From: Bradyrhizobium sp. 190
Lineage (GTDB): Bacteria; Pseudomonadota; Alphaproteobacteria; Rhizobiales; Xanthobacteraceae
Length of the DNA stretch: 64,000 nucleotides
Direction: 5' to 3'
Assembly: GCF_023073415.1 (NCBI RefSeq)
Contig: NZ_JADPJL010000005.1
Coordinates: 124,001 to 188,000 of the forward strand
A program made the position numbers and the translations under genes. Under the pieces are notes generated by a model, which was given only the letters and a program-made list of their open reading frames with translations, was not told the DNA's origin and made no database searches. Below, in pieces: positions 41,631-63,564 of this stretch (the first letter of the stretch is position 1; each line of letters begins with the position of its first letter).

Positions 41631-41663
41631 CGAGGGCGGCTAAGAGGAAAGGGCCGACAAGTC

Positions 41664-41680: not shown

Positions 41681-41743
41681 CCCTACGCGAAAGGCTCCGA
41701 AACCCTAGAAATACTGCAACATAAGGTCTATACCAACACCTGC

Positions 41744-41778: not shown

Positions 41779-41784
41779 AGGGGC

Positions 41785-43170
41785 ATGAACGTCATTCTAA
41801 GGTCGGAAAAAGGTGGCGGCGATCGGCGCTATCTAACCCAGCCCCGAGGCGAAGGGACGACTTGGTATGCTGTCGCTGAAGTTCCTAGGAGTTTGCGGCG
41901 CGCCATCGGAAAGAAGCGGCTTCTGAGGTCCCTGGAGACGATCGACCTTCGTGTGGCCCGCGTTGCCCGCTGGAATGCAGTCGCGGACTTGAAATCCCAG
42001 ATTGCCGGACACCGGACGCCCGGACCCGAGGATCAGGACCCCTTGCTTTTGGAGGCCATGGCTCTGCGGGAGGAATTTGTGAGGGCGGATGCCGCGCGGC
42101 GCAATGACCTCATGTATCAAATCACGGACCGCGCCGAAGAGATCGACCTAGCGGCGGGTGGCACTCGGGACGATTACGAACCCTTCGAAGACCCCCGGGC
42201 GGCCAGCAAGCGGGCCACCGAGTTTGTCCAACTGGCCGCAGCAAAGGCCACTCCGGCCGATCTTTACGTTGAGCGGTGGCTTTCGGCTTCCACTTACAGC
42301 GAGCGCACTAAAGCTGATGCCCGCACGGCACTAGCGCAGTTTAAGGAATGGTGCACGAAGGCAAGCCAAGGGTTCTTTATCGAGACAACCACCGATCGGG
42401 TTGCTGCCGATTTTCGCGATGAGGCTTTCGTCAAGGCTGGTGTCCATTTCAAGACAGCGAACAAAAAGCTATCCGCCTTGCGGCAATACTGGGGTTGGCT
42501 CGACCGAAGCTTTGGTGTGAAGTCGAACCCTTGGATGCGCAAATCGCTTCCTAAAGCCAAGGCTCACAGGATCGCGCAAGATGGTCCAATGGGCGCGGAG
42601 CGGCCGTTTACGGACGACGAGGTTCGCACTCTCCTCGCTGGCCCCGCGGATACCGATTTGGCCAACGTCATGCGGATTGCGGCCTTGTCGGGAATGCGCC
42701 TTGATGAGATCGGGCAGCTTCGTGTCGGTGATTGCCGCGACAACTCCGTCAGTGTCACACGCAGCAAATCCGCGGCGGGTGTTCGCACCATTCCGATTCA
42801 TTCGGCGTTGCGGTCGAAGATTGCGCAACTCATGGGTAAGCGTGATGCCACGGCATATTTATTCCCGGACTTTCAGGACACCGGTTGGGACGGCAACCGC
42901 ACCATGGCGCTCTCCAAGCGGTTCACTTACTACCGCATAAAACTCGGCGTGCATGACAAAAGGCCAGGAGCACGGCGATCAAAGGTGAACTTCCATAGCT
43001 TCCGGCGTTGGTTTGCGACGAAGGCTGAAGATGCCGGACACAGAGAGAACGTCGTGGCAGACATTATGGGCCACGAAAGCGAGGTCGGGATTACCTTCGG
43101 GCTCTATTCGAACGCTCAGTTGAAGCGGCTGAAGATGGCCTGTGTGGAATCGGTCAAGCTTCCGCTTTAG
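41785..43170 (+). CDS. Tyrosine-recombinase integrase of the island
   Basis: A 461-residue phage-type integrase. The N-terminal half contains an arm-binding region and a core-binding SAM-like domain (about 155-245). The catalytic domain shows Arg305 (SGMRLDEIGQL), His404 and Arg407 (NFHSFRRW), His430 (IMGHE) and the nucleophile Tyr441 (GLYS). It sits immediately inside the left attachment site and reads into the island, and the arm-type repeats overlap its promoter. It should catalyse insertion at the tRNA-Gln 3' end. All catalytic residues are present, so the element may still be mobile. Confidence 0.94.
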   Translation: MNVILRSEKGGGDRRYLTQPRGEGTTWYAVAEVPRSLRRAIGKKRLLRSLETIDLRVARVARWNAVADLKSQIAGHRTPGPEDQDPLLLEAMALREEFVRADAARRNDLMYQITDRAEEIDLAAGGTRDDYEPFEDPRAASKRATEFVQLAAAKATPADLYVERWLSASTYSERTKADARTALAQFKEWCTKASQGFFIETTTDRVAADFRDEAFVKAGVHFKTANKKLSALRQYWGWLDRSFGVKSNPWMRKSLPKAKAHRIAQDGPMGAERPFTDDEVRTLLAGPADTDLANVMRIAALSGMRLDEIGQLRVGDCRDNSVSVTRSKSAAGVRTIPIHSALRSKIAQLMGKRDATAYLFPDFQDTGWDGNRTMALSKRFTYYRIKLGVHDKRPGARRSKVNFHSFRRWFATKAEDAGHRENVVADIMGHESEVGITFGLYSNAQLKRLKMACVESVKLPL

Positions 43171-45421: not shown

Positions 45422-46411
45422 ATGGCCGGGACCGTGCATCAACGGTCGCGCCAAGTGCTGCTTAATGATCAAGCGATAATTGCGAGCGACATTGGCGTGG
45501 TGCGAACAGAGAACCAAGACCGGGTAGCTGTGCTGCGGGTTTCCGACGGTCCGAGGCCTTTCGTCTGCTTCGCACTAAGCGACGGCATGGGCGGGATGAA
45601 GGACGGCGGTCCATGCGCGACCGTCAGCATCGCTTCGTTTTTCTCCTCATTGGTCGAAGCGTCCGAGTTAGAGCCTCATCGAAAGCTTCACATCGCGACC
45701 AATGTAGCGAATGAGACGGTTTACAAAACTTGGCAGGGGCGTGGTGGTGCGACGCTGTCGGCCGTTCTGATCGACGCAGACAATTCAGCGTACGTCTCCA
45801 ACGTCGGCGATAGTCGCGTTTATGCGCTCGATGCCAAGTGGACAAAGTTGAGCCGTGTGACGGTGGATGACAATCTGAAAGAGGCCTTCGGGGGGGCCGA
45901 TAGGGGCCTTGTCCAGTTTATCGGCATAGGGAAATCGCTGGTTCCTAATGTTCAGCAAGTCGCCGTCGGTTTAAGTTCATTTTTCATCACATCGGACGGT
46001 GCGCATTATTTCGATGAGAAGATATTTGAGCAGCTCTTGCTTTGTGCGACGGACCCGCTTCGCGCTACCGACCGGCTGCTGGCATTAGCTCGCTGGCTTG
46101 GCGGTCCCGACAACGCATCCGTAGCGGCGTTCAGTGTGTCGCACCTTTCGAATATGCTCGGTCGTCAAAATGGCTCGCTGCCCACGGTCTGGAGCGGACA
46201 TTCTCAGCTCCACCTTCAACGGGTGCCGAACAAGGTTTTAAACACCGATGCTCCGCTGAGCCAGTCGGCCAACGAGCAGGAGCGCCCGCCTGCCACCAAG
46301 CAGCGGACGGCGACGAAACGGAAGAGCAGGACTTCAAAAAAGGCCGCACCAGGCGATCAGCTTGAAATCAAAATCTCTTCCGACGAGGGCGAGGATGCGA
46401 CTGATAGCTAA
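45422..46411 (+). CDS. PP2C-type Ser/Thr protein phosphatase
   Basis: A metal-dependent PPM phosphatase of 329 residues. Motifs in order: TENQDR (29-34), SDGMGG (53-58) with the metal-binding Asp54, GGATLSAVLID, SNVGDSRVY, TSDGAHYF and GPDNASVAAF. The C-terminal 80 residues are a basic then acidic low-complexity tail (KRKSRTSKKA, then SSDEGEDATDS), which may bind the partner kinases. Its end overlaps the first kinase gene by 17 bases. It would reverse phosphorylation by the two kinases that follow. Confidence 0.9.
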   Translation: MAGTVHQRSRQVLLNDQAIIASDIGVVRTENQDRVAVLRVSDGPRPFVCFALSDGMGGMKDGGPCATVSIASFFSSLVEASELEPHRKLHIATNVANETVYKTWQGRGGATLSAVLIDADNSAYVSNVGDSRVYALDAKWTKLSRVTVDDNLKEAFGGADRGLVQFIGIGKSLVPNVQQVAVGLSSFFITSDGAHYFDEKIFEQLLLCATDPLRATDRLLALARWLGGPDNASVAAFSVSHLSNMLGRQNGSLPTVWSGHSQLHLQRVPNKVLNTDAPLSQSANEQERPPATKQRTATKRKSRTSKKAAPGDQLEIKISSDEGEDATDS

Positions 46412-47438
46412 TCGGTATGAGCCGACGGGGAATGCTTCATGGGGAGGAATGGGCGAACTAAATGAATGCGAGGACAAGAACCTGTCCCGCAAGGTAATGC
46501 TGAAACGTGTTTTCAAGCCCTCTGACCTGCCGCGACTACTAGACGAACAGAAGGCGCTCATACGTCTGCGTTCAAAACACGTTGTTCAATTGTTGGACGT
46601 TATATCGTTCAAATGGAATAGCCAGGATATCCGATGCCTTGTGCTGGAGCACATACCCGGCACGGACCTAGACAAGCTGAGTTTCTCCGCAGGCGAGGAA
46701 TATCAAAAGACCTTGTGGCAGATCGCGACCGGAATATCCGAGATTCACGCCGCTGGGGTAATTCATCGCGACATCAAACCTCAAAACATCCGGCGCGACG
46801 GAAATGGGATCATAAAGATCTTCGACTTTGGTCTCGCGAGAGAAACAGGAAAAGACGACAAGACTAAAAGCATAGTGGGCACGATCGGCTACATGGCCCC
46901 CGAGCTGTTCGGCACGAAAACAATTTCTTTCACAGCGGCCATTGATACCTTTGCTTTTGCTCGCACGGCACTGGCTCTTCTTGGAATTCAACCGCGTAAC
47001 GAGAAACCAAAAGCCATACCCGCCGGCTCGGTCATTGCGGCTCAGTCCAAGCTCAATGTAGAGGTCGCTAAAACTCTAGAAGCTTGCCTCGACCTGTCGC
47101 CAACAGGCCGGCCTTCGATGAACGAAGTGACGGCACTCCTGGGACGAGATTTGCTTCGAGACAAGCACCGCGCCCGGGTTGGCACGCAGGCGCAAGCCTA
47201 TGAACTGAACGCGACCAAGCGTACGGTCAATTTATCTTTTCAAAGTCAAGGCAGCCTGTCGATCAGATACGACGGTTATGAGTTTAAGATTACCGCGTTA
47301 TCTGGCGATGTTTACGTGAACAACGCTAGAGCTACGGTGGGCACGACTATGTTGTCCGCATGCGTCATAACTATTGGCTCCGCGGCGCCGCGAGCTTTCG
47401 TGACTTTTGACATTTCCAACCCAGAGGTCATGGCATGA
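46395..47438 (+). CDS. Ser/Thr protein kinase with FHA-like C-terminal domain
   Basis: A 347-residue Hanks-type kinase. It has catalytic Lys37 (VMLKR), HRDIKPQN with Asp126, DFG at 144-146, and the activation-loop end GTIGYMAPE. The glycine-rich loop is degenerate (NASWGGMGEL). Residues about 275-347 look like an FHA phosphopeptide-binding domain (LSIRYDGYEFKI, DVYVNN, ACVITIGSAAPRAFVTFDI), though the usual Arg/Ser recognition residues are unclear. No transmembrane segment. The start at 46395 lies within the phosphatase end, and its stop overlaps the next kinase by four bases. Confidence 0.85.
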   Translation: MRLIANRYEPTGNASWGGMGELNECEDKNLSRKVMLKRVFKPSDLPRLLDEQKALIRLRSKHVVQLLDVISFKWNSQDIRCLVLEHIPGTDLDKLSFSAGEEYQKTLWQIATGISEIHAAGVIHRDIKPQNIRRDGNGIIKIFDFGLARETGKDDKTKSIVGTIGYMAPELFGTKTISFTAAIDTFAFARTALALLGIQPRNEKPKAIPAGSVIAAQSKLNVEVAKTLEACLDLSPTGRPSMNEVTALLGRDLLRDKHRARVGTQAQAYELNATKRTVNLSFQSQGSLSIRYDGYEFKITALSGDVYVNNARATVGTTMLSACVITIGSAAPRAFVTFDISNPEVMA

Positions 47439-48499
47439 TTACGCCGGGTACTGAGTTAGCTTCACGGTACGAGATCGTTTCTTATGTGGCCTCGGGTGGC
47501 ATGCAAGATGTCTACAAGGCCAACGACAAGCTGACCGGCGAAATAGTTGCTCTAAAGACACCCCAGGCCGGTCAAGCGAACAAGCGGTTCAAACAGAGCG
47601 CCATCTTGTCTGCGCGGATAAGTAATTACAACGTCGCCAAGACTTTTGATTACTTTGAAGAAGGCAATGCATGTTATCTGATCGAGGAGTACATAGAAGG
47701 GACCACGCTAGAGGCAGCTACACTGGACGTTATTCCTCAAATCGATCCGCACCTCGCAGCATATTTGATGCTCCGTATTGCCAAGGGGCTGGCAGCTTCA
47801 CACCAAGCTCAGGTAGCGCATCGAGACCTAAAGCCGAGCAACATACTTGTCGGCTCAGGTTTCTCTTCTATCAAAATCACTGATTTTGGAATTGCGACGC
47901 TTGCGGAAGAGCTTTTTGAGGAAGTCATTGCGAAGAGCGGAGACTTAACGCGCTCGACATCTGGAACTGTGAAGGGGGCGCTTCCTTACATGGCGCCTGA
48001 GATGATGTTTCGAAAGCCCGGCGATCATGTGGGATGCGAGGCCGATATTTGGTCTCTCGGAGCATTGATGTTTCGCCTGATGACAGGCTCATTCCCATTT
48101 GGTGAAGGCATGATGGTGCCGGTAAACGTTGAGAAGAAGCAACCTCTCAGTTGGCCAAGTTTCTTGACACGAAAAGCTCAGTTCGCCCCGCTTTCAAATT
48201 CGATAACCGGCATTGTCGAGAAATGCCTTGCTTACGACAAAGAGCAGCGGCCGGTTGCGCTAGAGGTGGTGGGCTCCTGCGAGGAGCTTTGCTTCCATTT
48301 TTCACCTCGCGAGTTCGGAGTCATCAGCGAGGTCAAATACTCGACCGGCTTCGTTAGATCATCGGACGGTGAGAAAATCTTCTATCACAAAGACAGCCTC
48401 TATGGCTCGTTGGGCGCCAAAGTTGGCAGCAAGGTGGTCTTTAGCGCTCACGACGGTACACCGTTCCCTCGTGCTCATCCCATTGTCGTTTGCCCATGA
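47435..48499 (+). CDS. Ser/Thr protein kinase with cold-shock-like C-terminal domain
   Basis: A 354-residue kinase with VALKT (Lys41), AHRDLKPSN (Asp131), DFG at 150-152, GALPYMAPE and a full C-lobe (ADIWSLGALMFRLMTGSFPF). Residues 294-354 resemble a cold-shock / OB-fold domain: GVISEVKYSTGFVRSSDGEKIFYHKDSL, then GSKVVFSAHD and RAHPIVV. The order is strand, GF/V-R, FYH, then a late V-x-F strand, as in CspA. Fusion of a kinase to such a nucleic-acid-binding domain is unusual and suggests that RNA or DNA binding triggers it. It is the last gene of the operon. Confidence 0.85.
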   Translation: MITPGTELASRYEIVSYVASGGMQDVYKANDKLTGEIVALKTPQAGQANKRFKQSAILSARISNYNVAKTFDYFEEGNACYLIEEYIEGTTLEAATLDVIPQIDPHLAAYLMLRIAKGLAASHQAQVAHRDLKPSNILVGSGFSSIKITDFGIATLAEELFEEVIAKSGDLTRSTSGTVKGALPYMAPEMMFRKPGDHVGCEADIWSLGALMFRLMTGSFPFGEGMMVPVNVEKKQPLSWPSFLTRKAQFAPLSNSITGIVEKCLAYDKEQRPVALEVVGSCEELCFHFSPREFGVISEVKYSTGFVRSSDGEKIFYHKDSLYGSLGAKVGSKVVFSAHDGTPFPRAHPIVVCP

Positions 48500-48815
48500 C
48501 GTCGGGCTAAGCGCTAAGCGGGGCATTCCGGCTGCTTTGGTGCGATGCGATTTCACCTTAATGAACTGCTCCGGCCTGCAACCCGCTTCCGGGACTAAAC
48601 CATTTTTGGGGCACAAATTTGAGAGGTGTCCTCGTCAGTCGCAACGTCGCCGTTCCCCCGTAGGGCGGGGCAGGTAACGGAGCGAGCTGCTTTCCGATGA
48701 AGAGACGGCTGTCTCCTTCACGTTCTCTGGTGGTCATCCGGCACGAGATGAGTCGTTTTGACTCATGGAAAATCGCCAAACGTTCGTTAGCGTATTCTCC
48801 AAACAAGGGGATCGC
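48500..48815. other. Intergenic region, no gene seen
   Basis: About 316 bases between the second kinase and the small serine recombinase. I see no credible open frame, RNA gene or terminator hairpin with a T-run. The promoter of the recombinase is presumably near its 3' end. Confidence 0.4.
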
Positions 48816-49574
48816 ATGGCGAAAAGCGTTGATAAACAGCAGAAGGTGGTGCGCTACATCTCTTATTTGCGCGTGTCGCGGGAATCCCAGGGGCTGCATG
48901 GTCTCGGCATCGAGGCGCAAAGGCGGGCGGTCAGAGAGTACCTTGCGCGGGTGGGAGCCGCCGATGCGCTCTTAGCCGAATACGTCGAGGTCGAAAGCGG
49001 CAGGCGGAATGAGCGCCCAGAATTGCTGCGGAGCTTTGATCACGCACGAAATGCGAGAGCGACGTTGATCATCGCAAAGCTGGATCGGTTGTCACGCGAT
49101 GTGCACTTCCTCACCGGGCTCGAAAGGGCCGGCATCGAGTTCATCGCTTGTGATCTGCCAAATGCGAATCGGCTTACGATCACCATCCTCGCCGCGGTAG
49201 CCGAGCACGAACGGGAGATGACGGCCGAGCGTACACGGGCGGCGCTTGCGGTGGCCCGAGATCGGGTCGCCAAGGTTGGCCAAAGAGGGCGCCCCTCGGT
49301 TAAACGGCTGGGCAACCCGAACGGAGCGGAGCACCTAAAGGAATTGGGCAACCGAGCGGCAGTATCGGCACTGAAGGCGAGAGCCGACGATACAGCGAGG
49401 CGGCTCAGCAACAGCCTGCATGCTGTGATCGAATCCGGGGCTAAATCTTCCCGGGCCATCGCAGTGGCTCTTAATGAACGGGGCGTGTTGTCGCCGCGCG
49501 GTTCTCAATGGGACGCCAAGGCGGTCATCAATTTGCAGCGCCGCTTGGCTGCCATGGGACAGCAAAACACATAG
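48816..49574 (+). CDS. Small serine recombinase / resolvase
   Basis: A 252-residue serine recombinase. The catalytic Ser21 lies in ISYLRVSRESQ, IIAKLDRLSRDVHFLTGLE is the central signature, and LAAVAEHEREMTAERTRAAL is the E-helix. The C-terminal third has a recombinase-type DNA-binding segment (AVALNERGVLSPRGSQWDAKAVINL). It is short for a large serine integrase, so it may act as a resolvase or invertase. A CAAGGGG site sets the ATG at 48816. It does not belong to the tyrosine-integrase element by function and may mark an older nested insertion. Confidence 0.9.
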   Translation: MAKSVDKQQKVVRYISYLRVSRESQGLHGLGIEAQRRAVREYLARVGAADALLAEYVEVESGRRNERPELLRSFDHARNARATLIIAKLDRLSRDVHFLTGLERAGIEFIACDLPNANRLTITILAAVAEHEREMTAERTRAALAVARDRVAKVGQRGRPSVKRLGNPNGAEHLKELGNRAAVSALKARADDTARRLSNSLHAVIESGAKSSRAIAVALNERGVLSPRGSQWDAKAVINLQRRLAAMGQQNT

Positions 49575-50077: not shown

Positions 50078-50473
50078 ATGTTGTCGAATATGACGACCGA
50101 AGATACTCACTGGTTCGTAGGCACCGTTGACAATCTTGGCTCGGTGGAAGTTGTTAGCAAGAATAAGAGTCCGACCCTTATTCTGAAATTCAAGACGCCC
50201 TACTTGGACAAGCTCGTGGCCATATGTCAGGCCCTTCGATACGAGGGCTCGCCGACCGGACCACGAAAGCCTTCGGGCGACTCGGTGCAGCCCCAGTACA
50301 TCTTGACGTTTCGTGGCAGAAACCTTGCGATGATCGAGAACCTCGTTGTGCCGCTTCTGCGGACGGGCAAACGCAACGTGTTTGCAAGGCGGCGTGCTGA
50401 GTTGATGGCCCAGCGCGAAAGCTTGGGGCTTACGGGGCCGCGCTATTCGGTTGATGCGGAAGCACAGGCTTAG
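50078..50473 (+). CDS. LAGLIDADG-like small protein
   Basis: A 131-residue product. Residues 11-24 (HWFVGTVDNLGSVE) resemble the LAGLIDADG helix, with the catalytic acid at Asp18. A beta-rich middle follows (PTLILKFKTPYLDKLVAICQAL and PQYILTFRGRNLAMIENLVVPLL), and then KRN. The layout is like half a homing endonuclease domain: helix, strands, helix, strands, helix. Similarity is by eye, and a single motif would require a homodimer. It stands just upstream of the zinc-motif and polymerase-like genes. Alternative: an uncharacterised mobile-element protein with coincidental resemblance. Confidence 0.6.
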   Translation: MLSNMTTEDTHWFVGTVDNLGSVEVVSKNKSPTLILKFKTPYLDKLVAICQALRYEGSPTGPRKPSGDSVQPQYILTFRGRNLAMIENLVVPLLRTGKRNVFARRRAELMAQRESLGLTGPRYSVDAEAQA

Positions 50474-50652
50474 GCCTGAGCCGTAGCGTCTCGTTAGTTG
50501 GCATTCCGGCCGGGGTTCGAACTGCAAGATCCGAACTTCGACGCGAGGTGCACCGCACCCGATAGGGCCAAGGGCCGGGATTGCTGACGTTGCACGATAT
50601 TTCGCTGAAGAGCGCATCTGTCGTCGTGCTACGACGAAGAGGAGTACTAATC

Positions 50653-51408
50653 TTGTTTGAAGGTAACGCGGCGGCCGCTTCTCGGCTGCGAAGCAGGCAG
50701 CTGTTGAGAGACCGCATCAACCTCGGGCCTCTCACGGCGGCGAGCACGTGCGCCATCCCGGGCTGCGGCCGTGCGACAATGAAGGCTGCCAAAATAGGGC
50801 TGGCCCCGCATCACTGCCGCAAGCACGTGGAGCACCGCGCAAGGCACGGCAGCTACTGGATCAACACCTACGCTGCCAGCGAGCTGAAGCCGTATCTTTC
50901 AGCAGCTACCGCCTACGTCCGCCTTTGGGCAGCCACCGACAAATTCATCGCCGCAGCCATAGCCGCTGTGCAAGCGGCACTGGACGAAGCTGGCCCGGTG
51001 GAGATTGCCACTCGGCTGAAAGGCATGCCGGCGACCAAGAGGGCGAAGATTGGTCTGGCCCGATTGCGGGTCGCTAAGGTCAAGCCGGAGCGCATCGTCT
51101 CAATCGTCCTGGCTGTGACCGCGCTGTGCGAGGAAAAGGCTCACCGTACGAAGGAGTTCCGCATGGTCCAGATTTGCAAGGCTGTCCACCGGCTCGCGAG
51201 CGGCACCCATAAGGTTTGGCAGGTCGAGGACTATCAAGGTCGGAAGCGACGGACCGAACTCCACGCCTTTCCTAGGTCGTCTGGGCCGGTGCTGCGGTTG
51301 ATGGGCCGGGCCCTTGAAGAACCGTGTGAGTGGGTCGTTGAGAAGCACCTTGCGGGCGTGCTTGCCGTCAAGATCAAGCGATACGGCCGTCATCCATCAT
51401 TGCCTTAG
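50653..51408 (+). CDS. Protein with a CxxxxC...HCxxH zinc-like motif, unknown function
   Basis: About 251 residues from a TTG at 50653, which has AAGAGGAG 9 bases upstream; a TTG at 50581 is an alternative. Residues 33-58 (CAIPGCGRA through HHCRKH) form a likely zinc site with two Cys, then His-Cys and His. The C-terminal part (VWQVEDYQGRKRRTELHAFPRSSGPVLRLMGRALEEPCEWVV) has no family I know. A short zinc knuckle of this type occurs in mobile-element DNA-binding proteins. It lies between the LAGLIDADG-like and polymerase-like genes and probably shares their element. Confidence 0.6.
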   Translation: MFEGNAAAASRLRSRQLLRDRINLGPLTAASTCAIPGCGRATMKAAKIGLAPHHCRKHVEHRARHGSYWINTYAASELKPYLSAATAYVRLWAATDKFIAAAIAAVQAALDEAGPVEIATRLKGMPATKRAKIGLARLRVAKVKPERIVSIVLAVTALCEEKAHRTKEFRMVQICKAVHRLASGTHKVWQVEDYQGRKRRTELHAFPRSSGPVLRLMGRALEEPCEWVVEKHLAGVLAVKIKRYGRHPSLP

Positions 51409-51494: not shown

Positions 51495-52838
51495 ATGTTT
51501 ATGCCGATCACTTTGAACACGAGACTACAGATAGCACTGCGACCATCGATGATATCCCAGCCCAGGCCAATGTGGTTCGATCCTCAATTCAGAGCGAGGA
51601 CGGCTGACCTCCGTTCTGCAATCAGAAAGATCAGCGGCCTTCTGCTGGATCATGAATTCGCGAGCGGCCGGCGGACGCGAGCGCGGAAGGATGCCGACAA
51701 CGAAAAGTTCTACGTCGCGGTTGAGGCGCTAGCTTGCAATTTACTTCTTCTAAAGGCGACCGGCAGCGAATCAAAACTCGCCGTTCCCCGGTCACACGAT
51801 TTTCTATGGCAGGGCAACGCCCGCGCAAATCCGGTCTACGGTCAACACTTCTTGGACGCGATCGATCTCTCGACGGCGGTGGGGCTGGTTGAACAGAGCC
51901 GCCGGGGCTACAAAATTTCCGCAAGGTCGAAAATGCCGTCGCTCATTGGGCCTGCGGATAGTCTTGCTGACCACCTGCCGCTTGCACCGCCAGATTGGCG
52001 CAGCATCCACCAGATTGACGACCCAGCATTGATCATCCTGAAAGAAGGCAAGGACGAAGACGGCCGGGCCGCTGCTATTCCCTACAGAGAGACTGCCCGA
52101 ACAAACCAATTGGCAGGACAAATCCGGCGCATAAATAAATTCCTGCGAGATGCAAGTATCGAAATCACCGGCTCAGAGAATGGCCTCTCGCTAGGAAAAG
52201 ACGGCCAAATTGTTGCGCCTTACCGGCGTTCACTCCGGCGCATATTCAATAATGCCAACTGGCAACATGGCGGCCGTCTCGCGGGTGGTTTCTGGATGTC
52301 GATGGAACGTGTTGAACGCAAGGAACGGCTCCGAATTGATGGCCAGCCCACTGCTAGCGCTGATTACCGACAGCTTTTTTCCCGCTTGGCTTACGTTCGT
52401 GCAGGCGCCGATCAGCCCGAGGGCGACATCTACGATGTGGCGGGCGACGGGACCGGACGAGATGGCTGGAAGAAACTGATGAATGCGATGCTGTTCTCGG
52501 ATGGCCGGCTAAAGAATTGGCCAGAGGACACCCGTCAGCACTTCCCGGCCGGTACAAAAGTTCGGGAGGCCATCGAGATGCTCGCCGCGAAGCACCAACC
52601 CATCGCGCATTTATTTAGCGCCGGCCTTGGCTTCCAATTGATGCGCATCGAGAGCGATATGCTGATTGAGGTCATCACCCATCTTTTTGGTGCCGGGGTA
52701 ACCGCCTTGCCGCTTCATGACGCGGTGCTGGTCGCGGAATCTAAAGCTGACGTTGCGGCGAACGCAATGCAGGCAGTTTTTGAGAGATGGTCCACCTCAC
52801 GCTGCGCGATAGTTTCAGTGGAATTTTCCTCTCAATAA
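51495..52838 (+). CDS. Compact family-A-polymerase-like protein
   Basis: A 447-residue protein with no close named relative that I recall. In the C-terminal half, three blocks occur in the order of single-subunit (family A / T7-like) polymerases. Asp290 in ADYRQLFSRL resembles motif A (DYSQIELR). RDGWKKLMNAMLF (322-334) resembles motif B (R, K, then N). LPLHDAVLV with Asp409 resembles motif C (HDE). The spacing is compressed (36 and 83 residues against about 53 and 124 in Pol I), and there is no exonuclease domain. It may be a small mobile-element replication or RNA polymerase, or a degenerate relative. Tandem 14-bp repeats follow its stop codon. Confidence 0.7.
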   Translation: MFMPITLNTRLQIALRPSMISQPRPMWFDPQFRARTADLRSAIRKISGLLLDHEFASGRRTRARKDADNEKFYVAVEALACNLLLLKATGSESKLAVPRSHDFLWQGNARANPVYGQHFLDAIDLSTAVGLVEQSRRGYKISARSKMPSLIGPADSLADHLPLAPPDWRSIHQIDDPALIILKEGKDEDGRAAAIPYRETARTNQLAGQIRRINKFLRDASIEITGSENGLSLGKDGQIVAPYRRSLRRIFNNANWQHGGRLAGGFWMSMERVERKERLRIDGQPTASADYRQLFSRLAYVRAGADQPEGDIYDVAGDGTGRDGWKKLMNAMLFSDGRLKNWPEDTRQHFPAGTKVREAIEMLAAKHQPIAHLFSAGLGFQLMRIESDMLIEVITHLFGAGVTALPLHDAVLVAESKADVAANAMQAVFERWSTSRCAIVSVEFSSQ

Positions 52839-52876
52839 CAATAGCTTAGGTCCTTACGCCTCCGCTAATGGAGGGA

Positions 52877-52918
52877 GAAACTAAGAGGGGGAAACTTGGA
52901 GGAGGAAACTTAGAAGCT
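52877..52918 (+). repeat. Three tandem 14-bp repeats (iteron-like)
   Basis: GAAACTAAGAGGGG, GAAACTTGGAGGAG and GAAACTTAGAAGCT follow one another without gaps, 38 bases after the polymerase-like gene. The tail motif TTAGAGGAG or TTAGGAGGG recurs at 52957 and 52986 within an imperfect hairpin (52953-52995). The arrangement resembles iterons at a replication origin or a protein-binding array. Confidence 0.7.
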
Positions 52919-53894
52919 CTGGGCTCCTCCTGAGGGGCGTCCCTTGTGGTTGCCTCTTAGGAGGGTGAGTGACCATCACCCCTCTCTTAGAGGAGCACCC
53001 GGATGGGTCCCTGAAAGACTTCCCTCCTTGTAGAGAGGTCCCGCCCCATCCCATACCCAAAAGGGAGTGGCCGCTTGTATCCCAATGAGTCCCTACGCGA
53101 AGGGCAACCATTGAAGAGGGGATGCTGCGCCATCCATCACCCTCGTTACCCCTCTAAGGGCCCAAAGATAACCGGGCAGTGGGGACGTTAGGGAAAAAAG
53201 CCACCATCTCGTGATCATTGAGATCTGCCTTCGAGGGTAGTCCTATGGGAGTGTTGAGCGGGACTGGAATGACACCGGACGAACCTTAGGACCGACCACG
53301 CGTCTTCTTTCGCGGTCCTGCGAGTCATGCAGGGGAGGACAGAGGTCCGTTGTGGCTCAGTCGCGTCATTTTGGTTGTTGGCCGACTACTCCGGTCTTCC
53401 CCTGGAAACGGACATCGTCAGGGCCGGTCGCCATGTCTCAAAGGTACCAGCAACGGACGTCGCCACGGCGGAGCACCTTGGGCTGCGATGGTCACAGTTG
53501 TTGGAAGCGTATCTAGCGTTCGACCGGACCATTGAAGCGGGTGAGCTTTCGGTCACTATTGAAGCAGTGCAGCGAATTTCAACGAAAGCAAACCGTTTAA
53601 GATCGCTCCTGTTCGATTCGTCCCTTCGAACAGGCCGTCTCGGGCAGATCGGATGATGGCTACCCGTCATTGAACACACCCCCCCTTTTCAACCGTGCGT
53701 TTCGCCCTTAGACTGACTGTCAGTGCGCCTACGAAAGCACACTCATGACATATTTTTTGGCGTTCCCCACAGGAGTCAGTTGGCTCTAGCCTAGTTCTAC
53801 ACTTCGCAAAAATTCAAAACGCAGCAACCGGAAGAAAGACAGCTAACTTAGCGAAACTCAGCCGTGAAATGGGAGCAGCGCGTCTGATCGTGCA
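52919..53894. other. Long non-coding stretch with repeats
   Basis: About 975 bases without a supported gene. It contains the imperfect hairpin at 52953-52995, a purine/pyrimidine-skewed section to about 53200, and the dispersed repeat copy at 53342-53458. An A/T-richer leader sits before the CHAT gene. A 109-codon frame at 53327-53656 covers the dispersed repeat and is not convincing as a gene. Confidence 0.5.
53342..53458. repeat. Dispersed island repeat, copy A
   Basis: This stretch aligns almost without gaps to 60132-60249. Shared blocks include TCGCGTC, the GGTCTTCC/GCTCTACC segment, ACATCGT and CATGTCTCAAA. The copies diverge at many positions, so they are old. They look like remnants of an intergenic repeat or dead element rather than coding sequence. 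Confidence 0.7.
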
Positions 53895-56195
53895 ATGCAA
53901 CTGAATATCGGTTTTATACCTCAGATTCTGATTGCAGGGGCGATACTCTGGTTTGGCTTGCTTTTATTCATCGTCCTGAAGCGAGAGTTTTTTCGCGGCG
54001 ACAGATCGATCGAGCAAACGGCACTCGAGCTGACGAACATACATAGAGAATTTTTAGACCACGTACGCGCCAGGCGAGATTCAGAGTTCTTCAGGGCGCA
54101 AGTAGATGCACGTGAACTCAAAAAAATGTACAGGGATTTCTTGTGGCGCGTTCAAATTCGGCATCCCCTTCAGTCATTTCAAAGATCTCGAGAGCTCTCG
54201 GGCTTTGCGATTACTTATCGCGAGTTTATAGATCATCTCCATCAGTCTGGATTCTTCTTTCGTGAAGGTCATGACGAGGAAGTCTTGCAGGAGGAGTTTC
54301 GGCGCTTTCTCGAACGGCGTCCTCGATCCTTGTGGCTTGCATTCGGTGTCGTCGGCACACTTGTACTGTCCGCTCAGTTTGCGGTCGCCGCTTCACCTGC
54401 AGTGTTGGTAGTTGGCGGATTGCTGGCTGCCTCTTCACTATATCGAGAGAACGAAATACCAAATCGGGCTTATTGGAACACTTGGTTCGAATATGACGAC
54501 GGATTGCCGCAAGACGCGCTGACTGTTGGCAACCGCTACACGTTCGTCCTCGACCTTTCGCCATTCGAATACGCCAAACTGCGCACGGCTCCGGTCGCGA
54601 CTTCGGGAGCCAGTCCCCAGATCCAAAACTTGCTCGACGAGACAAAGCGGAAGCGGCTCACCCTGATGATCAAACCGTTGCTCGCGGGCGGCAGTGGTTT
54701 ACATTTTTCCCGAGAGGTGGGCATCACCGCCCTAGAGGCGAAATTAGAGCGTATTCGGTATCCGAACTACGAGGAGGCAAACCGCTATGCGAGTGGTGTC
54801 GGGTCACCTGCCGACCTTTCGAAGAATGTGGCGGCCGACACATTACGGTTTGATATTTTTGCAGACGCGCCGGGCTGTTCTGCCGTCGTCTTCTCCATTT
54901 TGGACGTAACCCAACGCGTTCCGCTTGACCATCTCGTGCGCTGGGTTGCGATCGCCAACCCGGGACAAGAGGCACCCCCCTGTGGAGACCGGCAGATCTA
55001 CGGAGGCCTGGAAACTCTGCTGGAAGTGTCGCTCGATGTTGAAGCAGCTGGAACTGGCCACCTTGCGGCGGCTGCATTCCATATCTTCGAGATCAACGAA
55101 GAGCACAGTTTCGTTGTATTCGCAGACGCGCGGCCTGACCGAAAACGCGTTTATGCGTGGGAAACCGAAGAAAGCATCATCAAGCTTGTGAACGAAGCAT
55201 CGAGGTTGCCATTGCTGATTAAAGAGGCTCGTGACATGGCGGTGAAGGGAAAGCCAGGAAGCTATGCGAAGGTGGCCAATGAACTTGCCAACGTGCTCTT
55301 TGCCGGGAGGGACTCGACCGAGGATGAAGCAAGGAAGGCCAAGCAGGCATTCAAAGAACTCGTGGAGCAGTCGGCAACGCGTCCAGTTATTGTAACGCGC
55401 GCGGTTTCCAATAATCTTGTCGGCGGGAAGAACCAGAGCTTTTATGTCCCGCTCGGAATTCTCGGCGCGAAGGCAGCGACGCCGGACGGCGCGGAAGCGG
55501 TCCTGAAGCAACCTATCACTGTAGTGCAGCCACTGCCTCGAGAGCGGTACGCAACCAAGAACACCTGCATCCATGAGTGGACTTTCGGGGTCCCAAACAA
55601 GTTGCAAGATGTCAGGGAGAATGTCGCCGATTTGATGCCGCGAGATCGGCCGGGGGCCTGGTTCCATGATTTTGCGGAACTGCAGTCATACCTGTTAGGC
55701 GACCAGCGGAGCGACGGCCCGCCGGAAAAGAGCCAACTCGGACAGGGATTTCTCCTTCTCGCTCATCATGGTAGAGGACATATGTGGTTCGAACGAGAGC
55801 AAGATCGCGTGATCGTGTCGAACGTCCGTCGTAGGTATCCCGCAGGAAGTGTCGGAGTGTTCGCTGCCTGCGCGGTGACAGCCGCTTACGACGCCGGATT
55901 CTTGCAGCAGTTTAATGCGCGTGGAATTGACGCGCTCATTGCGTCGCCTTTCTCGATCCCAGCAACCTATGGTACTCGGCTGGCCGCCGAATTTCCGGGG
56001 GCACTGCAGGAGCTGACGGAAAGTAAGGGTGTGCCTACCATAACCGATCTGTTCAACCTCGCTCTTGAGCGGACCGCCAGCCGTCTGGCGCGCGACTTTG
56101 GGAAGGGACGATACGAAGAAATCGGACTCGAATACATGCTGCTCGGAAATCCCGGGCTGGTTCTGTGCGACAAAACCGGAGCACGCAAGCAATGA
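53895..56195 (+). CDS. Membrane-anchored CHAT-type caspase-like protease
   Basis: A 766-residue protein. An N-terminal transmembrane helix (about 8-28) precedes a coiled-coil/helical region. A second hydrophobic hairpin (about 147-182) follows, then a large soluble part. The C-terminal 150 residues form a CHAT-like caspase fold: LLLAHHGRGHMWFE with catalytic His624 or His625, VGVFAACAVTAA with catalytic Cys659, and the late LEYMLLGNPGLVL that closes such domains. CHAT proteases (as in TPR-CHAT/Craspase and gasdermin-linked proteins) are activated by sensor partners and cut specific targets. Its stop overlaps the metallophosphoesterase start (ATGA). The ribosome-binding site is weak. Confidence 0.82.
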   Translation: MQLNIGFIPQILIAGAILWFGLLLFIVLKREFFRGDRSIEQTALELTNIHREFLDHVRARRDSEFFRAQVDARELKKMYRDFLWRVQIRHPLQSFQRSRELSGFAITYREFIDHLHQSGFFFREGHDEEVLQEEFRRFLERRPRSLWLAFGVVGTLVLSAQFAVAASPAVLVVGGLLAASSLYRENEIPNRAYWNTWFEYDDGLPQDALTVGNRYTFVLDLSPFEYAKLRTAPVATSGASPQIQNLLDETKRKRLTLMIKPLLAGGSGLHFSREVGITALEAKLERIRYPNYEEANRYASGVGSPADLSKNVAADTLRFDIFADAPGCSAVVFSILDVTQRVPLDHLVRWVAIANPGQEAPPCGDRQIYGGLETLLEVSLDVEAAGTGHLAAAAFHIFEINEEHSFVVFADARPDRKRVYAWETEESIIKLVNEASRLPLLIKEARDMAVKGKPGSYAKVANELANVLFAGRDSTEDEARKAKQAFKELVEQSATRPVIVTRAVSNNLVGGKNQSFYVPLGILGAKAATPDGAEAVLKQPITVVQPLPRERYATKNTCIHEWTFGVPNKLQDVRENVADLMPRDRPGAWFHDFAELQSYLLGDQRSDGPPEKSQLGQGFLLLAHHGRGHMWFEREQDRVIVSNVRRRYPAGSVGVFAACAVTAAYDAGFLQQFNARGIDALIASPFSIPATYGTRLAAEFPGALQELTESKGVPTITDLFNLALERTASRLARDFGKGRYEEIGLEYMLLGNPGLVLCDKTGARKQ

Positions 56196-57781
56196 TGTCT
56201 CGCCCTGATTTCGCGGCCTGCCTGGGTCTCGTGGTGGGATTGGTGCTTTTTAGCACTACTGCGGTGACGCAAAGCCAGCCGACAGGTCAACTGACACCTG
56301 CGGATGAGCCTGCCATCGCCATTACCCCCTATCGGACTCCGCCCGCGGGATCGCGTTATCTGGTGTTCATAAGCGATCTGCATTTGGGCGTGGGGCGGAG
56401 ACCGGACGGGAGTTGGGATCCGACCGAGGACTTCCGGTGGCCAAAAGCGCTCGACGGTTTTTTGCAGGAAGTGTCCCGCCGCGGGCAGGACCAAGTCGAT
56501 CTCGTCATCGTGGGTGATTTCCTCGAACTGTGGCAGCCGCCCGCGAGCATTCCTTGCAAAGGTACAAGCGCGGATCTCGGTTGCACCCTGGACGAGATGG
56601 AATCGCTTTCACGTCTGGTAGTGGCTGCCCATTCCGATTCCCTGAGTATCTTACGCGCTTTCGCCGAGCGGGGAGAGAACCGCTTGCATGTCGTTCCGGG
56701 CAACCACGACGCCACATTGCGCTACGAGCGCGTATGGCGACCACTCGGAGAGGTGCTGAACGTAACGAGCGGCCGCATTAACCTGGTCGAAAGCGGCATT
56801 TGGACCTCACCTGACGAGCGGATCGTCGCAGAGCACGGCCATCAGATCGGGATGGATGTCAACCGGTACGAACAGTGGCCGCGCATCGTTCGGCGAGAAG
56901 GCGGTCTCCAATACGTCATTCGGCCATGGGGAGAACTCTTCGTGCAGAGACTCTTCAATGAGCAAGAAGAGACGTATCCCATCATCGACAACCTAAGTCC
57001 AGAGAGCGCGGGCGCGCGTTATCGAGCCGCCGACCGCGGACTTTGGGGCTCCGCGAAAGACATTGCACGCTTTATCTTTTTCAACCTCTGGGAGACGTCC
57101 CCTAAACAGCGCGGAGCCTCCCTTGGCCCAGAGGCGATCGACAAGCGGGAGTGGAGTATTAAGGTCGCGCGTACACTTGGGGCTGATCTGTTTCTGAAGG
57201 CATTGCCACCCGAGGATGAACTAAGCAACCAGATACAAGCGGGCGGGAGCAACGCAGAAGCCGTCAAGGCCGAACTGGCCGCGATGGCGAAGAGTATTTC
57301 TCGCGTGCCTGATGAGGCCATTCTGCACCTGTGCGATCTGGTTGCCGATCGGGGAACACCGCTCTGTGCGGACCCCGAACTTGGCCAATTGGGCCAGCAT
57401 TTGTTCCTGGCCAAGGCACAGATTCTGAGTCGGCATTTTCGAGCGAGGCAATTGCAGTTCCGCGCCATGCGCGTGTTCATTTATGGCCATACGCACCAAT
57501 TCGAGACGCCTTGTTCCGTGGCGTTAAACGATCTAATAAGTATAACTGTGGCCAATACCGGGGCCTTCCAGCGGCTGATCGATGAAGAAGGTTTTCTACG
57601 TGTCATCGGCGGAACACCGCCATGGGAGGGACTGCGTACCTTGCGTTTGGAACAGCTGCCGCCGCGCTACACGGCGGTCATCGTGGCAGACGCCAATTCC
57701 AATCCGGAGGTTTATGCTTGGCATATGCCGGAAGATGGCATCGGCGCGCTAGTAACGGCCGAAGATGGGCGTTGCCGGTAA
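56192..57781 (+). CDS. Exported calcineurin-like metallophosphoesterase
   Basis: A 529-residue protein starting MMSRPDFAACLGLVVGLVLFSTTAVTQ, a signal peptide or membrane anchor. The two-metal phosphoesterase motifs are complete: FISDLHLG (Asp62, His64), VGDFLELW, PGNHD, AEHGHQIG and FIYGHTHQFETP. A helical insertion of about 200 residues lies between GHQ and GHTH. Family members hydrolyse phosphodiesters or phosphomonoesters, including lipid headgroups and cyclic nucleotides; the substrate is unknown here. The four-base overlap with the CHAT protease gene shows the two are made as a pair. Confidence 0.85.
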   Translation: MMSRPDFAACLGLVVGLVLFSTTAVTQSQPTGQLTPADEPAIAITPYRTPPAGSRYLVFISDLHLGVGRRPDGSWDPTEDFRWPKALDGFLQEVSRRGQDQVDLVIVGDFLELWQPPASIPCKGTSADLGCTLDEMESLSRLVVAAHSDSLSILRAFAERGENRLHVVPGNHDATLRYERVWRPLGEVLNVTSGRINLVESGIWTSPDERIVAEHGHQIGMDVNRYEQWPRIVRREGGLQYVIRPWGELFVQRLFNEQEETYPIIDNLSPESAGARYRAADRGLWGSAKDIARFIFFNLWETSPKQRGASLGPEAIDKREWSIKVARTLGADLFLKALPPEDELSNQIQAGGSNAEAVKAELAAMAKSISRVPDEAILHLCDLVADRGTPLCADPELGQLGQHLFLAKAQILSRHFRARQLQFRAMRVFIYGHTHQFETPCSVALNDLISITVANTGAFQRLIDEEGFLRVIGGTPPWEGLRTLRLEQLPPRYTAVIVADANSNPEVYAWHMPEDGIGALVTAEDGRCR

Positions 57782-58340
57782 ATGTGTGCACCACAATAGT
57801 TGTCGTAGCCTGCTCGTCGTTCGCGGTAGCCCGGACCAAGGTTACGACAGCAGAAACGCGAGGTGTCATGTCCTCCATGCTACTACGAATGCACTATTCG
57901 CCTTTGTGCATCTCTTCCAGACTGATCTCACAAACATGCTAAGCTCTTCTAATGCACGGAGATGCTCAGCGCCGGCAGAACCATGAGCGGGGCTGTTCGG
58001 AGTTGAGCTTCGGTTTGCGCGACTTCAATGAAGTGTGGACCCACCTGAAACTTGAAGAGCCTAAGCCGTGGATTAATTTTGTTCGGGTGCATTGCTGCAC
58101 GCGCGACAATCATCCGATCAGTGCTGGACCACCTCGCCAAATGCTGGCGGATGTCTCTTGTGGGTCAACAGCGGAAGTGAAGCGGTTATATTCAGTCAGT
58201 ACTCCTGGCTAAAGTTCACATCTTAAAGGCGATAGTACCGCCAAATGTTGAGTAGTATTCTCTGTGGCGTTGACCGGGTCGTGATCTAGACTGCTGAGAC
58301 CTCGAAGCGGAGCACGGCGAGGTCAGCCGGCGCGGCCTCC
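57782..58340. other. Intergenic region, no gene seen
   Basis: About 560 bases between the metallophosphoesterase and the large serine recombinase. A few short open frames are present but none shows protein-like features. A weakly repeat-like stretch (TTGTGGGTCAACAGCGGAAG near 58158) resembles the dispersed island repeat. The final 60 bases probably carry the recombinase promoter. Confidence 0.4.
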
Positions 58341-59921
58341 ATGGCGAACGCTCTTGTTATTCACAAGGATCGTTTTCCTCAGTCACTGAGGAGTCTTCGC
58401 GCGGCACAATACGTCCGCATGTCCACAGAATTTCAGCAATACTCTATCGAAAATCAGGCTGTGGTAATCGCTGCCTACGCACAGTTACACAATCTCTCAA
58501 TCGTCCGCACCTATCGAGATGAAGGCGAGAGCGGCCTCACTATCAAGAATAGAATGGGCCTAGCCCGATTGGTCGATGATGTCCGGTCTGGTAATGCCGA
58601 TTTCGGTACTATTCTCGTCTTTGACGTCAGCCGTTGGGGACGGTTTCAGGACGTTGATGAGAGCGCGTACTACGAGTTCATTTGCAAACAAGCGGGAATC
58701 AAAGTTGCCTATTGCGCGGAGCAGTTTCAGAACGACGGTAGCCTGATTTCGCAGATCATTAAAAACATCAAGAGAGTTATGGCTGCGGAATACAGCCGAG
58801 AACTTTCAGCGAAGGTTTATGCCGGACAGTCTCGCTTCGCGAAGCTCGGATTCAAAATGGGCGGCAGAGTGGCCTATGGCTTAGAGCGAGTCGTAGTAGA
58901 CGAACAATCTCAGCCAAAAGGCATTCTGAAGACGGGAGAGCGCAAGTATCTGAGCACCGAGCATGTGAGAATCCGTCCTGGGTCGCCGGATGAAATCGCG
59001 ACTGTGAAGTGGATTTTTGACGAATTCGTTCGGGGTACCACCGAGAAGAGGATTGCACGGGAACTAAATCTGCGAGGTGTGCCGACAAATCACGGGGGGC
59101 CATGGCGTCGAACCTTCGTCACTGACCTTCTTAGAAACGAAGTCTATATCGGAAACCTCATTTACAATCGCGTAGGCCAGAAGCTTGGAAGCAAAAAGAA
59201 CCCGAATCCAGAAAACCTTTGGATCAGAACGGAGGGCTGCGTCGAACCTATCATCGGTCGAGATATGTTTATGCGCGTGAGAACAATCATGCAGGAGCGT
59301 CGCGTCGACATCTCAGAGGACGAGATGTTAGCCCGCCTCCGTCGGGTTCTGATGAAGAGAGGGAAGCTCTCCATGGCTATCATCGACAAGACGGTCAGTC
59401 TCCCTTGTTCCCGTACATACCTGAAACACTTTGGCAGCCTTCAGAACGTCTATCGGTTGATCGGATACACCGGTAGCCGTTGGTGGGATGCTATGGAAAT
59501 TCACAGGCGTTGGTCAGCCTTGAACGCGGGAAATGCCGAGCTTCTTCGCGAGAGATTTCAGAAGATGGGATACACGGCAACTTTTGACCCAGCTATAGAA
59601 TGCCTGCGAGTGAAAGGGGTCGGGAATATCTGCTTTAGGTTGGCCCGATGGCAAGCATTTTATGAAGATCATTCGTGGCGATGGGCGGTTCGGCGTAGAA
59701 CGAAGTCACCAGCAGGATGGATGGTCGTCACACGGCTAGGTAAACACAACAAGGAAGTTCTGGATTACCTACTGCTGCCTTCAACATCCTTCCAAAGAGT
59801 TTGGCTGACTTTTTCGGACAGAACTCGCGGGGCACACAAGATAGAAAGCTTCGCGAGTTTCGCAGACCTGGCTCGATCGGTCGTCCGGCGCCTGAGCAAA
59901 CATAGACCTGTCAACCATTGA
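58341..59921 (+). CDS. Large serine recombinase
   Basis: A 526-residue site-specific recombinase. The N-terminal catalytic domain has Ser28 (QYVRMSTEFQQYS), GESGLTIKNR and ILVFDVSRWGRF. A Recombinase domain follows (about 180-290, GRVAYGLERV ... ELNLRGVPTNHGGPWRRTFVTDLLRNEVYIGNLIYN), then a long C-terminal part. The cysteine-rich zinc ribbon usual in phage integrases is not obvious, so it resembles the rhizobial recombinase subfamily lacking a clear zinc domain. It may mobilise part of the island independently of the tyrosine integrase. Confidence 0.92.
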   Translation: MANALVIHKDRFPQSLRSLRAAQYVRMSTEFQQYSIENQAVVIAAYAQLHNLSIVRTYRDEGESGLTIKNRMGLARLVDDVRSGNADFGTILVFDVSRWGRFQDVDESAYYEFICKQAGIKVAYCAEQFQNDGSLISQIIKNIKRVMAAEYSRELSAKVYAGQSRFAKLGFKMGGRVAYGLERVVVDEQSQPKGILKTGERKYLSTEHVRIRPGSPDEIATVKWIFDEFVRGTTEKRIARELNLRGVPTNHGGPWRRTFVTDLLRNEVYIGNLIYNRVGQKLGSKKNPNPENLWIRTEGCVEPIIGRDMFMRVRTIMQERRVDISEDEMLARLRRVLMKRGKLSMAIIDKTVSLPCSRTYLKHFGSLQNVYRLIGYTGSRWWDAMEIHRRWSALNAGNAELLRERFQKMGYTATFDPAIECLRVKGVGNICFRLARWQAFYEDHSWRWAVRRRTKSPAGWMVVTRLGKHNKEVLDYLLLPSTSFQRVWLTFSDRTRGAHKIESFASFADLARSVVRRLSKHRPVNH

Positions 59922-60131
59922 AGCGGCTAGGCTGGTGGTAATCGGACTGGGAACTGAGTGCGTTAAGTTGAGCAGCATGTCGCGGACTTCGTGGCAATCG
60001 CACTGCTTGTCTCCGCGCCTTCGGTTTGAAGGTCACTTCGGATCACAAGTTGGGTCACAAGCGGACAGACTCCGCCTGATCGGATCGCGCCCGCTCAGCC
60101 CGTGAAAGCCGAGGCAGTAGATCCGCCACTT

Positions 60132-60249
60132 GAGGACCGCTATGGGTCAATCGCGTCGGTTTGACGGTGTACCGACGACTTCCGCTCTACCTCTATAAAC
60201 ATACATCGTTACCGTGCGTCGGCATGTCTCAAATGTGCCAATTGCCGAC
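60132..60249. repeat. Dispersed island repeat, copy B
   Basis: Counterpart of 53342-53458, aligned nearly base for base over about 117 positions with many substitutions. Both copies lie in gene-free gaps beside a conflict-type gene pair. Confidence 0.7.
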
Positions 60250-60387
60250 CTTCGCCAAGCTCATCGCGAAGGGCCGAGTTGCGCCGACCTGCAGCGGCAA
60301 CAGAGCAGGTCTCGTGGCCGCCGCACCCGTGCAGCAGCCTATAAAGTCGCGGTTAGAGGATTGCAGTACCCCTGACGACGCATAAAG

Positions 60388-60431
60388 ATGAACTGAATCT
60401 AGAGAGGTATAAAAATGAACTGAATCTAGAG
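60388..60431. repeat. Short tandem duplication
   Basis: ATGAACTGAATCTAGAG occurs at 60388-60404 and again, exactly, at 60415-60431, a 27-base period. The intervening bases differ slightly. It is probably a replication-slippage duplication. Confidence 0.8.
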
Positions 60432-60550
60432 GCGTCGGTAGAGTTTGATAATGGCCATCAGGAGTCTCGATTTCATACGCAACGGTCAAATGTCCGGAAA
60501 GGGTCGAACCCGGTATCTCCTTCACATCCCACCCGACTCCGACCGATCCA

Positions 60551-62529: not shown

Positions 62530-62766
62530 CTAACCCCGCGTCCTCTTTTGGGGCACCAGCAGCCGGTCAGGCGTCGTCTTCAGCGCACGAGCCAAGCGGG
62601 CCAGAACAACAATCGTGCAGTTACGCGTGCCGCGCTCAACCTGGCTGATGTATGTGCGATCTAACCCCGCCTCCAAAGCTAAATCCTCTTGGGACAGCCC
62701 AAGATTCTTGCGGGCCTTCCGAACGGCCACCGCCACCACGTCAATGATGCCTGTCTCGTCTTCCAT
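62530..62766 (-). CDS. XRE-family helix-turn-helix regulator
   Basis: A 78-residue Cro/CI-type repressor: VRKARKNLGLSQEDLALEAGLDRTYISQVERGTRNCTIVVLARLARAL covers a complete five-helix HTH_3 domain, with nothing else attached. Small stand-alone XRE proteins often control restriction-modification or conflict operons. It lies upstream of the subtilase-Trypco1 operon on the same strand and near the right end of the island, so it may regulate either. Confidence 0.92.
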   Translation of the reverse strand: MEDETGIIDVVAVAVRKARKNLGLSQEDLALEAGLDRTYISQVERGTRNCTIVVLARLARALKTTPDRLLVPQKRTRG

Positions 62767-63490: not shown

Positions 63491-63507
63491 TGGCTGGGGA
63501 ACTAGGA
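63491..63507. repeat. Right attachment site of the genomic island
   Basis: TGGCTGGGGAACTAGGA, identical to 41664-41680. It forms the last 17 bases of the tRNA-Gln gene, including the encoded CCA end, so the island restores the tRNA on insertion. Confidence 0.88.
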
Positions 63508-63564
63508 TTCGAACCTAGACAAACAGAGTCAGAGTCTGTTGTGCTACCGTTACACCATTCCCCA
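63491..63564 (-). tRNA. tRNA-Gln (anticodon CTG)
   Basis: Read on the minus strand, 74 bases fold as a tRNA. The acceptor strand is TGGGGAA pairing with TTCCCCA, the D-arm lies around GTGTAACGGTAGCAC, the T-arm contains GGTTCGAATCC, and the CCA end is encoded. The anticodon loop CTCTGAC gives anticodon CTG, which reads CAG glutamine codons. Its 3' end points into the genomic island and is the integration target. Confidence 0.95.

Follow-up and report, generated by a model that had tools for sequence, protein, structure and literature searches.

A predicted TV-Pol-like family-A palm polymerase carried by integrative elements in Bradyrhizobium, with a linked zinc-motif gene and a G-rich 3' tract

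The kind of polymerase considered here is already in print as TV-Pol (PMC2579912), with phage relatives described as divPolA2 (PMC11348598). TV-Pols share two palm aspartates, an absolutely conserved arginine in a beta-hairpin, a fingers aspartate with an RxxxK motif, and a thumb of two antiparallel helices; the sources of the published alignment include Rhodopseudomonas palustris, Methylobacterium and Paracoccus, and in one Gemmata TV-Pol the thumb is replaced by a zinc-chelating domain (PMC2579912). A precedent for family-A priming on mobile elements is CCPol-MP, and in the available portion of that paper the authors state that by 2020 no TV-Pol other than CCPol had been biochemically characterised and recall that a putative SaPI origin lies directly downstream of the SaPI replication gene (PMC7581432).

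Here we describe a relative of these enzymes in Bradyrhizobium sp. 190. In the window, by which we mean the whole 64,000-nt stretch of DNA that was analysed, a gene for a TV-Pol-like family-A palm polymerase of 447 aa lies at 51495..52838 (+), as judged from an open reading frame with an ATG start, its conservation, a Pol I profile match, and a structural model with its fold matches. On balance, we think it somewhat probable that this protein, with its palm, short fingers and own N-terminal domain, makes DNA for an integrative element. An earlier note, made from sequence alone, had proposed three segments of the protein as catalytic motifs A, B and C, and all three are present: ADYRQLFSRL with D290, RDGWKKLMNAMLF with R322 and K326, and LPLHDAVLV with H408-D409. 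Their likeness to family-A motifs exceeds chance, because they are conserved in relatives and stand in register with Pol I far above shuffled controls. The compressed spacing that the note remarked on amounts to distances of 32 (D290 to R322) and 87 residues (R322 to D409). As it also said, no exonuclease domain is recognisable, and the 447-aa protein carries no Pfam family (no match at E up to 1); the open reading frame does match a phage family whose function is unknown, phrog_4756 (E=4.2e-22).

Conservation was assessed on 46 full-length relatives, which remained from 59 matches once identical duplicates (7) and fragments of less than 300 aa (6) had been removed. One of them (L034) was kept despite an in-frame stop and lacks motif C, hence the denominators of 45 for D409 and H408. 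The earlier note had named beforehand poor conservation of Asp290 and Asp409 as evidence against its idea, and both are invariant in the homologues aligned (46/46 and 45/45), as is N214 (46/46); R322 is kept in 42/46, K326 in 43/46 and H408 in 41/45. Alignment A1, with 44 of the 46 rows, leaves out the stop-broken L034 and L057, a near-copy of L041, and retains R261 in 41 of 44 rows (L in 2, a gap in 1), D311 in 39, Y313 in 40, R322 in 40 and K326 in 41. The catalytic residues persist in homologues down to about 12% identity. Some relatives look broken: G249:C3 (L034) has one in-frame stop, and G052:C24 (L011, L024) consists of separated pieces. Another, G787:C8:363292-364617, lies in a 1047-aa open frame and is a possible fusion.

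Comparison of the family profile with 31 Pol I sequences gave a score of 50.5 at a probability of 86% and E=5.1e-6 (a single comparison), against at most 21.0 for 20 column-shuffled profiles, 15.3 for the reversed profile, and 14.4 and 13.5 for two unrelated families. The alignment, supported throughout by conservation, places GGR (residues 259-261; 52269..52277, +), whose Arg is the equivalent of the hairpin Arg, on TGR of Pol I; D290 (52362..52364, +) on the motif A Asp; Asp and Tyr of D311-I-Y313 (52425..52433, +) on the fingers Asp and the His of DIH; R322xxxK326 (52458..52472, +) on RxxxK of motif B; and H408-D409 (52716..52721, +) on the HD of motif C. None of the 44 members matches PF00476, the housekeeping Pol I family, at E up to 0.1, and thus the family forms a divergent branch. 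A plain sequence search of PDB with the polymerase gave nothing significant, and a search of PDB with the family profile placed Taq chains at E of about 1 behind an unrelated chain at E 0.18.

An AlphaFold2 model built from 39 sequences has a mean pLDDT of 89.5 and a pTM of 0.86. The Foldseek check of the predicted structure that the note had suggested returned family-A DNA polymerases as all 50 PDB matches listed, T7 DNA polymerase being the best of these 50 at E=2.3e-6. Among predicted viral structures, the closest were phage proteins with E down to 7.9e-21, one of them named as a DNA polymerase of Rheinheimera phage Barba31A. The model has a strand at 259-264, at the hairpin Arg R261, and a helix at 201-219, a candidate for one of the two antiparallel thumb helices expected in a TV-Pol. 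Most structural matches begin at about residue 173-193, which leaves the first 170 or so residues without a fold assignment, including the N-terminal region at about residues 25-180 (51567..52034, +). By predicted fold and motifs, then, the product of 51495-52838 is a family-A palm polymerase without a recognisable exonuclease.

Whether such an enzyme would make DNA or RNA can be approached through its steric gate, five residues after the motif A Asp and corresponding to E710 of Pol I. This position holds H in 18, F in 14 and Y in 5 rows, so that 37 of 44 rows carry H, F or Y and not a small residue as in T7 RNA polymerase, which has G there (DGSCSG); T7 DNA polymerase has E (DASGLE). A bulky residue here would favour dNTPs over NTPs. 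Elsewhere in the active site, the F762 position of Pol I (position 330 here) is replaced by N, L, M or V in 41 of 44 rows, and the Y766 position is changed to N in 22 and F in 15 of 44. It is nonetheless conceivable, though we consider it unlikely, that the protein functions as a T7-like single-subunit RNA polymerase and transcribes genes of the element or makes RNA primers. A second structural aligner placed yeast mitochondrial RNA polymerase (Z 13.1) close to the DNA polymerases (apPol, Z 14.3 over 242 residues at 3.8 A). Motif C reads HDS/HDA and not HDE, and this type of motif C also occurs in T7 RNA polymerase. An RNA polymerase is likewise left open by the divPolA2 authors in the available part of their paper (PMC11348598). 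The steric gate argues against this, as does the match to the Pol I profile; T7 polymerases as single sequences, the RNA polymerase included, did not align with the family at the motifs, a single sequence being a weak test.

Three named Bradyrhizobium contigs carry relatives at 67-69% identity, and a member is present in 16 of 100 related genomes. The family profile matches in 49/265 genomes of the genus and 24/398 of the phylum, and phrog_4756 in 24/289 of the class. A tblastn search found 135 phage records (115 Rheinheimera and 20 Vibrio phages) and three plasmids, the Rheinheimera records reaching a best E of 7e-9 and covering residues 184-430; a single-protein scan of viral contigs with the polymerase found no relative.

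The gene lies in what the earlier note took to be a mobile island, and comparison of genomes points the same way: the interval from a P450 gene to tRNA-Gln (63491..63564, -), the right flank of the variable region, is 21.9 kb here versus about 3.6 and 2.4 kb in the relatives G019 and G023. Inside it are a tyrosine integrase on the left side (41785..43170, +; PF00589 at E=3.7e-13, PF20172), a serine resolvase (48765..49574, +; PF00239 at E=5.4e-23) and a serine recombinase with Resolvase and Recombinase domains (58341..59921, +; PF00239, PF07508). Similar genes accompany the family elsewhere. Among 47 loci, of which 46 are independent because L002 and L153 are the same place, an integrase-containing protein cluster occurs in 27 and a resolvase-containing cluster in 22, where clusters were identified by one inspected member and counted anywhere in the available stretch of each locus. 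Pfam on 262 of 327 neighbouring open reading frames gave at least 18 Phage_integrase and at least 18 Resolvase matches, as counted from the 25 commonest families per batch, and the neighbour families listed also include restriction-modification genes. D5_N, the one helicase family searched for, occurs in 9 of 38 polymerase-bearing genomes but within 10 kb of the polymerase in none of the 38, the nearest being about 12.8 kb off in G001. The idea of a minimal single-subunit polymerase on a bacterial element thus draws support from the predicted fold, the conserved catalytic residues and the mobile setting.

Several other features of the island were recorded. An open reading frame of 131 aa at 50078-50473 (+) resembles by eye a degenerate LAGLIDADG protein, has no Pfam match at E up to 0.5, and is kept in the relative L120 at 70% DNA identity. 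The block at 45422-48499 (+), a PP2C-like phosphatase (weak, below cut-off) followed by two Ser/Thr protein kinases, is kept in the island of the same relative at 78% identity. Between the polymerase and tRNA-Gln, positions 53895-61792 hold a 766-aa protein with no trusted Pfam match, a calcineurin-like phosphoesterase, the serine recombinase and a subtilase, a group that is possibly a second, nested insertion. The stretches 53253-53330 and 62487-62560 are alike (…ACACCGGACGAAC…); the second precedes a membrane-like open reading frame, and the ACACCGGACGAAC stretch stands closely behind the polymerase in other islands. We rejected the DNA from 62487 onward as the chromosome flank, since the stretch is itself rare in the genus (5/31 genomes). 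The segments 41501-42000 and 62301-62620 have no exact repeat of at least 10 nt in common.

Two features are linked to the polymerase itself. The first is a partner gene at 50581..51408 (+), 275 aa if counted from the first TTG as a putative start, which ends 86 nt before the polymerase start and is delimited by linkage, co-occurrence and a model. In ten of the 15 independent loci where its relatives adjoin the polymerase they lie upstream and in four downstream, all on the same strand; in one they lie 2 kb off on the opposite strand. Across 100 genomes, the partner occurs in 15, the polymerase in 16 and both in 11 (Fisher p=3.4e-8, a test that ignores relatedness), so that 5 of 16 polymerase-bearing genomes lack it; in held-out loci, it falls within the 1.5-kb flank in 12 of 18. 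In the loci examined, it was not found outside the order. Its C-x4-C-x16-C-x2-H motif is nearly invariant in 14 partner sequences, and the remainder is mostly helical, as is the model (pLDDT 82.4), which has no PDB match below E 0.47.

The second is a purine/G-rich non-coding tract directly 3' of the polymerase, at approximately 52839..53060 on neither strand in particular, recognised from run statistics, relatives and held-out loci. The earlier note had seen iteron-like repeats beside the gene. A repeat search does find 3.1 copies of a 14-nt unit (52871..52914, +), but five close relatives have no tandem array, and the copies belong to the wider tract. What close relatives do keep behind the stop codon is a 22-nt motif (52853..52874, +) followed by purine/G-rich DNA; in four relatives, DNA homology of the module stops 65-85 nt past the stop codon. 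As a measure of the tract, we used the fraction of the 250 nt following the gene that falls in purine or pyrimidine runs of at least 7, with the 90th percentile of 168 other gene ends as the threshold. By this measure, 15 of 28 testable loci (of 46) are above threshold (Mann-Whitney p=1.1e-4). In a held-out set of 18 previously unused loci, taken from 56 matched places in one genus, 16 of 18 exceed it, one tract being cut by a contig end, versus 0 of 18 upstream windows, which are mostly coding, so that the 168 gene ends are the fairer control. The 22-nt motif is present with at most 2 mismatches in 10 of the 18; divergent members (L130-L132, L230-L232, L235) have a like tract without it. When GGG and CCC clusters are counted on the coding strand over the first 100 nt, GGG prevails in 15 of 16 untied held-out loci (p=2.6e-4), and held-out p-values are too small because the loci come from one genus and the ten motif-sharing ones are close relatives; the bias in the broad set, 23 of 37 untied loci, is not significant (p=0.094). 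Thus, the tract is clear in Bradyrhizobium and weak in the broad set, and behind two phage copies it is absent.

Two other identities for this DNA were rejected. A structured RNA is disfavoured, since the 222-nt tract folds no better than its shuffles (RNA z -1.1; z 0.40 for the opposite strand folded as DNA) and there is almost no covariation (term 0.03; both sides changed in 3 of 26 pairs). An attachment site is disfavoured as well: across 100 genomes, a 17-nt core has five exact copies, all of them immediately behind a polymerase gene and none standing alone. With one mismatch, the core has three copies in genomes without the polymerase gene.

Six of 64 loci have an RNase H-like gene next to the polymerase or partner, four among the 46 independent discovery loci and two among the 18 held-out ones; none was found near the polymerase in the window. 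Catalytic residues, assigned by eye from RNase HI motifs, are kept in L137 and L143 and lost in part or entirely in L144, L002, L224 and L218. In two of these loci, L224 and L002, the RNase H-like gene overlaps the partner gene or lies directly against it. A speculative and rather doubtful extension would make the polymerase, the partner, this often degenerate protein and the G-rich tract one replication module. Transcripts running on from the gene into the tract would leave an RNA-DNA hybrid there, favoured because the G-clusters lie on the non-template strand; the RNase H-like protein or the partner would hold the hybrid, and the polymerase would prime replication of the element there. If true, the origin used by this family-A primase/replicase would lie immediately downstream of the gene that encodes it, and no D5 helicase would take part.

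It also seems improbable that the protein is a repair or translesion polymerase carried as cargo and not the replication enzyme of the element. Variable neighbourhoods and the distance of D5_N helicases would suit such a passenger, and in the available text on divPolA2 repair is among the roles that its authors suggest for the phage proteins (PMC11348598), but the tight link to the partner and the fixed non-coding DNA behind the gene would be needless for cargo. Very unlikely is a defence enzyme for which the tract is transcribed as template or trigger, as in reverse-transcriptase defence systems: conserved non-coding DNA by the gene, RNase H-like neighbours and nearby restriction-modification genes would fit, but no PADLOC family matches more than 1 of 44 members (best E 0.0037) and the tract shows neither a significant RNA fold nor covariation.

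Our best guess therefore stays with a priming or replication polymerase of integrative elements. Its computed basis is family-A homology, predicted fold, a conserved catalytic set, the mobile setting, and linkage to the partner and 3' tract. The reading is supported because the aspartates are invariant, Pol I and the predicted fold match, the steric gate is bulky, integrases and resolvases are neighbours, and partner and tract accompany the gene. Against it stand the absence of a D5 helicase within 10 kb, the replaced F762 equivalent, the genomes that lack the partner and its absence outside the order in the loci examined, the weakness of the tract in the broad set and its absence at the phage copies, and a mitochondrial RNA polymerase match that is nearly as good. 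The element would first be excised by its recombinase; the partner may then help hold the template while the polymerase begins to make DNA at the 3' tract or close by, either de novo or from a transcript that has paired with the DNA there. The element would thereby be copied before re-integration. By analogy, it may work much as the CCPol-MP primase of SCC elements does, with another partner and without a D5 helicase.

The polymerase branch is frequent (in nearly a fifth of the genus genomes given above), small and conserved, and it offers a candidate partner and a candidate start site. For these reasons, the prediction made in 2008 that mobile elements are primed and copied by family-A polymerases of their own becomes directly testable outside staphylococci, and the linked partner and tract make the function of this polymerase testable in particular. 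By homology and modelling, it is a real, conserved family-A palm polymerase of integrative elements, of a known kind and with a predicted function.

Among described systems, the N-terminal-domain subset of TV-Pols is alike in its 400-600 aa, hairpin Arg, palm Asp pair, fingers Asp with RxxxK, lack of a nuclease, and resolvase and integrase neighbours (PMC2579912). The hairpin Arg is absolute in TV-Pols (PMC2579912), whereas R261 is not absolute here; a zinc-motif partner and a G-rich 3' tract are unmentioned in the main text of PMC2579912, and no D5 helicase was found within 10 kb here. The family profile found nothing significant in Ma-LMM01, named as a TV-Pol source in 2008 (best E 0.15). 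Its gp030, which may be the TV-Pol of Ma-LMM01, aligned weakly from motif A to motif B (probability 1.6%).

The divPolA2 proteins of barbaviruses and other phages are alike, in the available part of PMC11348598, in having a palm without an exonuclease and an N-terminal domain of unknown fold. Rheinheimera barbavirus proteins of the same size, among them L026, turn up in our family search, and barbavirus gp041 is probably the divPolA2 of that text (PMC11348598). The phage genomes differ in that they carry a regular PolB (PMC11348598, same part), and the two phage copies examined have neither partner gene nor tract.

CCPol-MP and the PolA-SSB primases are alike in that their family-A polymerase is exonuclease-poor, has a small partner and is carried by elements with recombinases, as far as the available portions of PMC7581432 and PMC10061031 describe them. 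De novo priming with dNTPs is a mark of that group. According to the same portions, CCPol keeps the E710 and F762 equivalents (PMC7581432), unlike the H/F/Y and N/L/M/V found here; MP is an OB fold (PMC10061031), its kind of partner being placed between polymerase and helicase, whereas the partner here is predicted to be mostly helical with a Cys/His motif; and the PolA-SSB primase operon includes a D5 or DUF927 helicase (PMC10061031), in contrast to the surroundings of the polymerase in the 38 genomes searched for D5_N above. The partner gene, the RNase H-like neighbours and the 3' tract are undescribed in the main text of PMC2579912 and in the available parts of PMC11348598, PMC10061031, PMC7581432 and PMC6715854, and the partner and the tract may be new additions to a known kind of polymerase.
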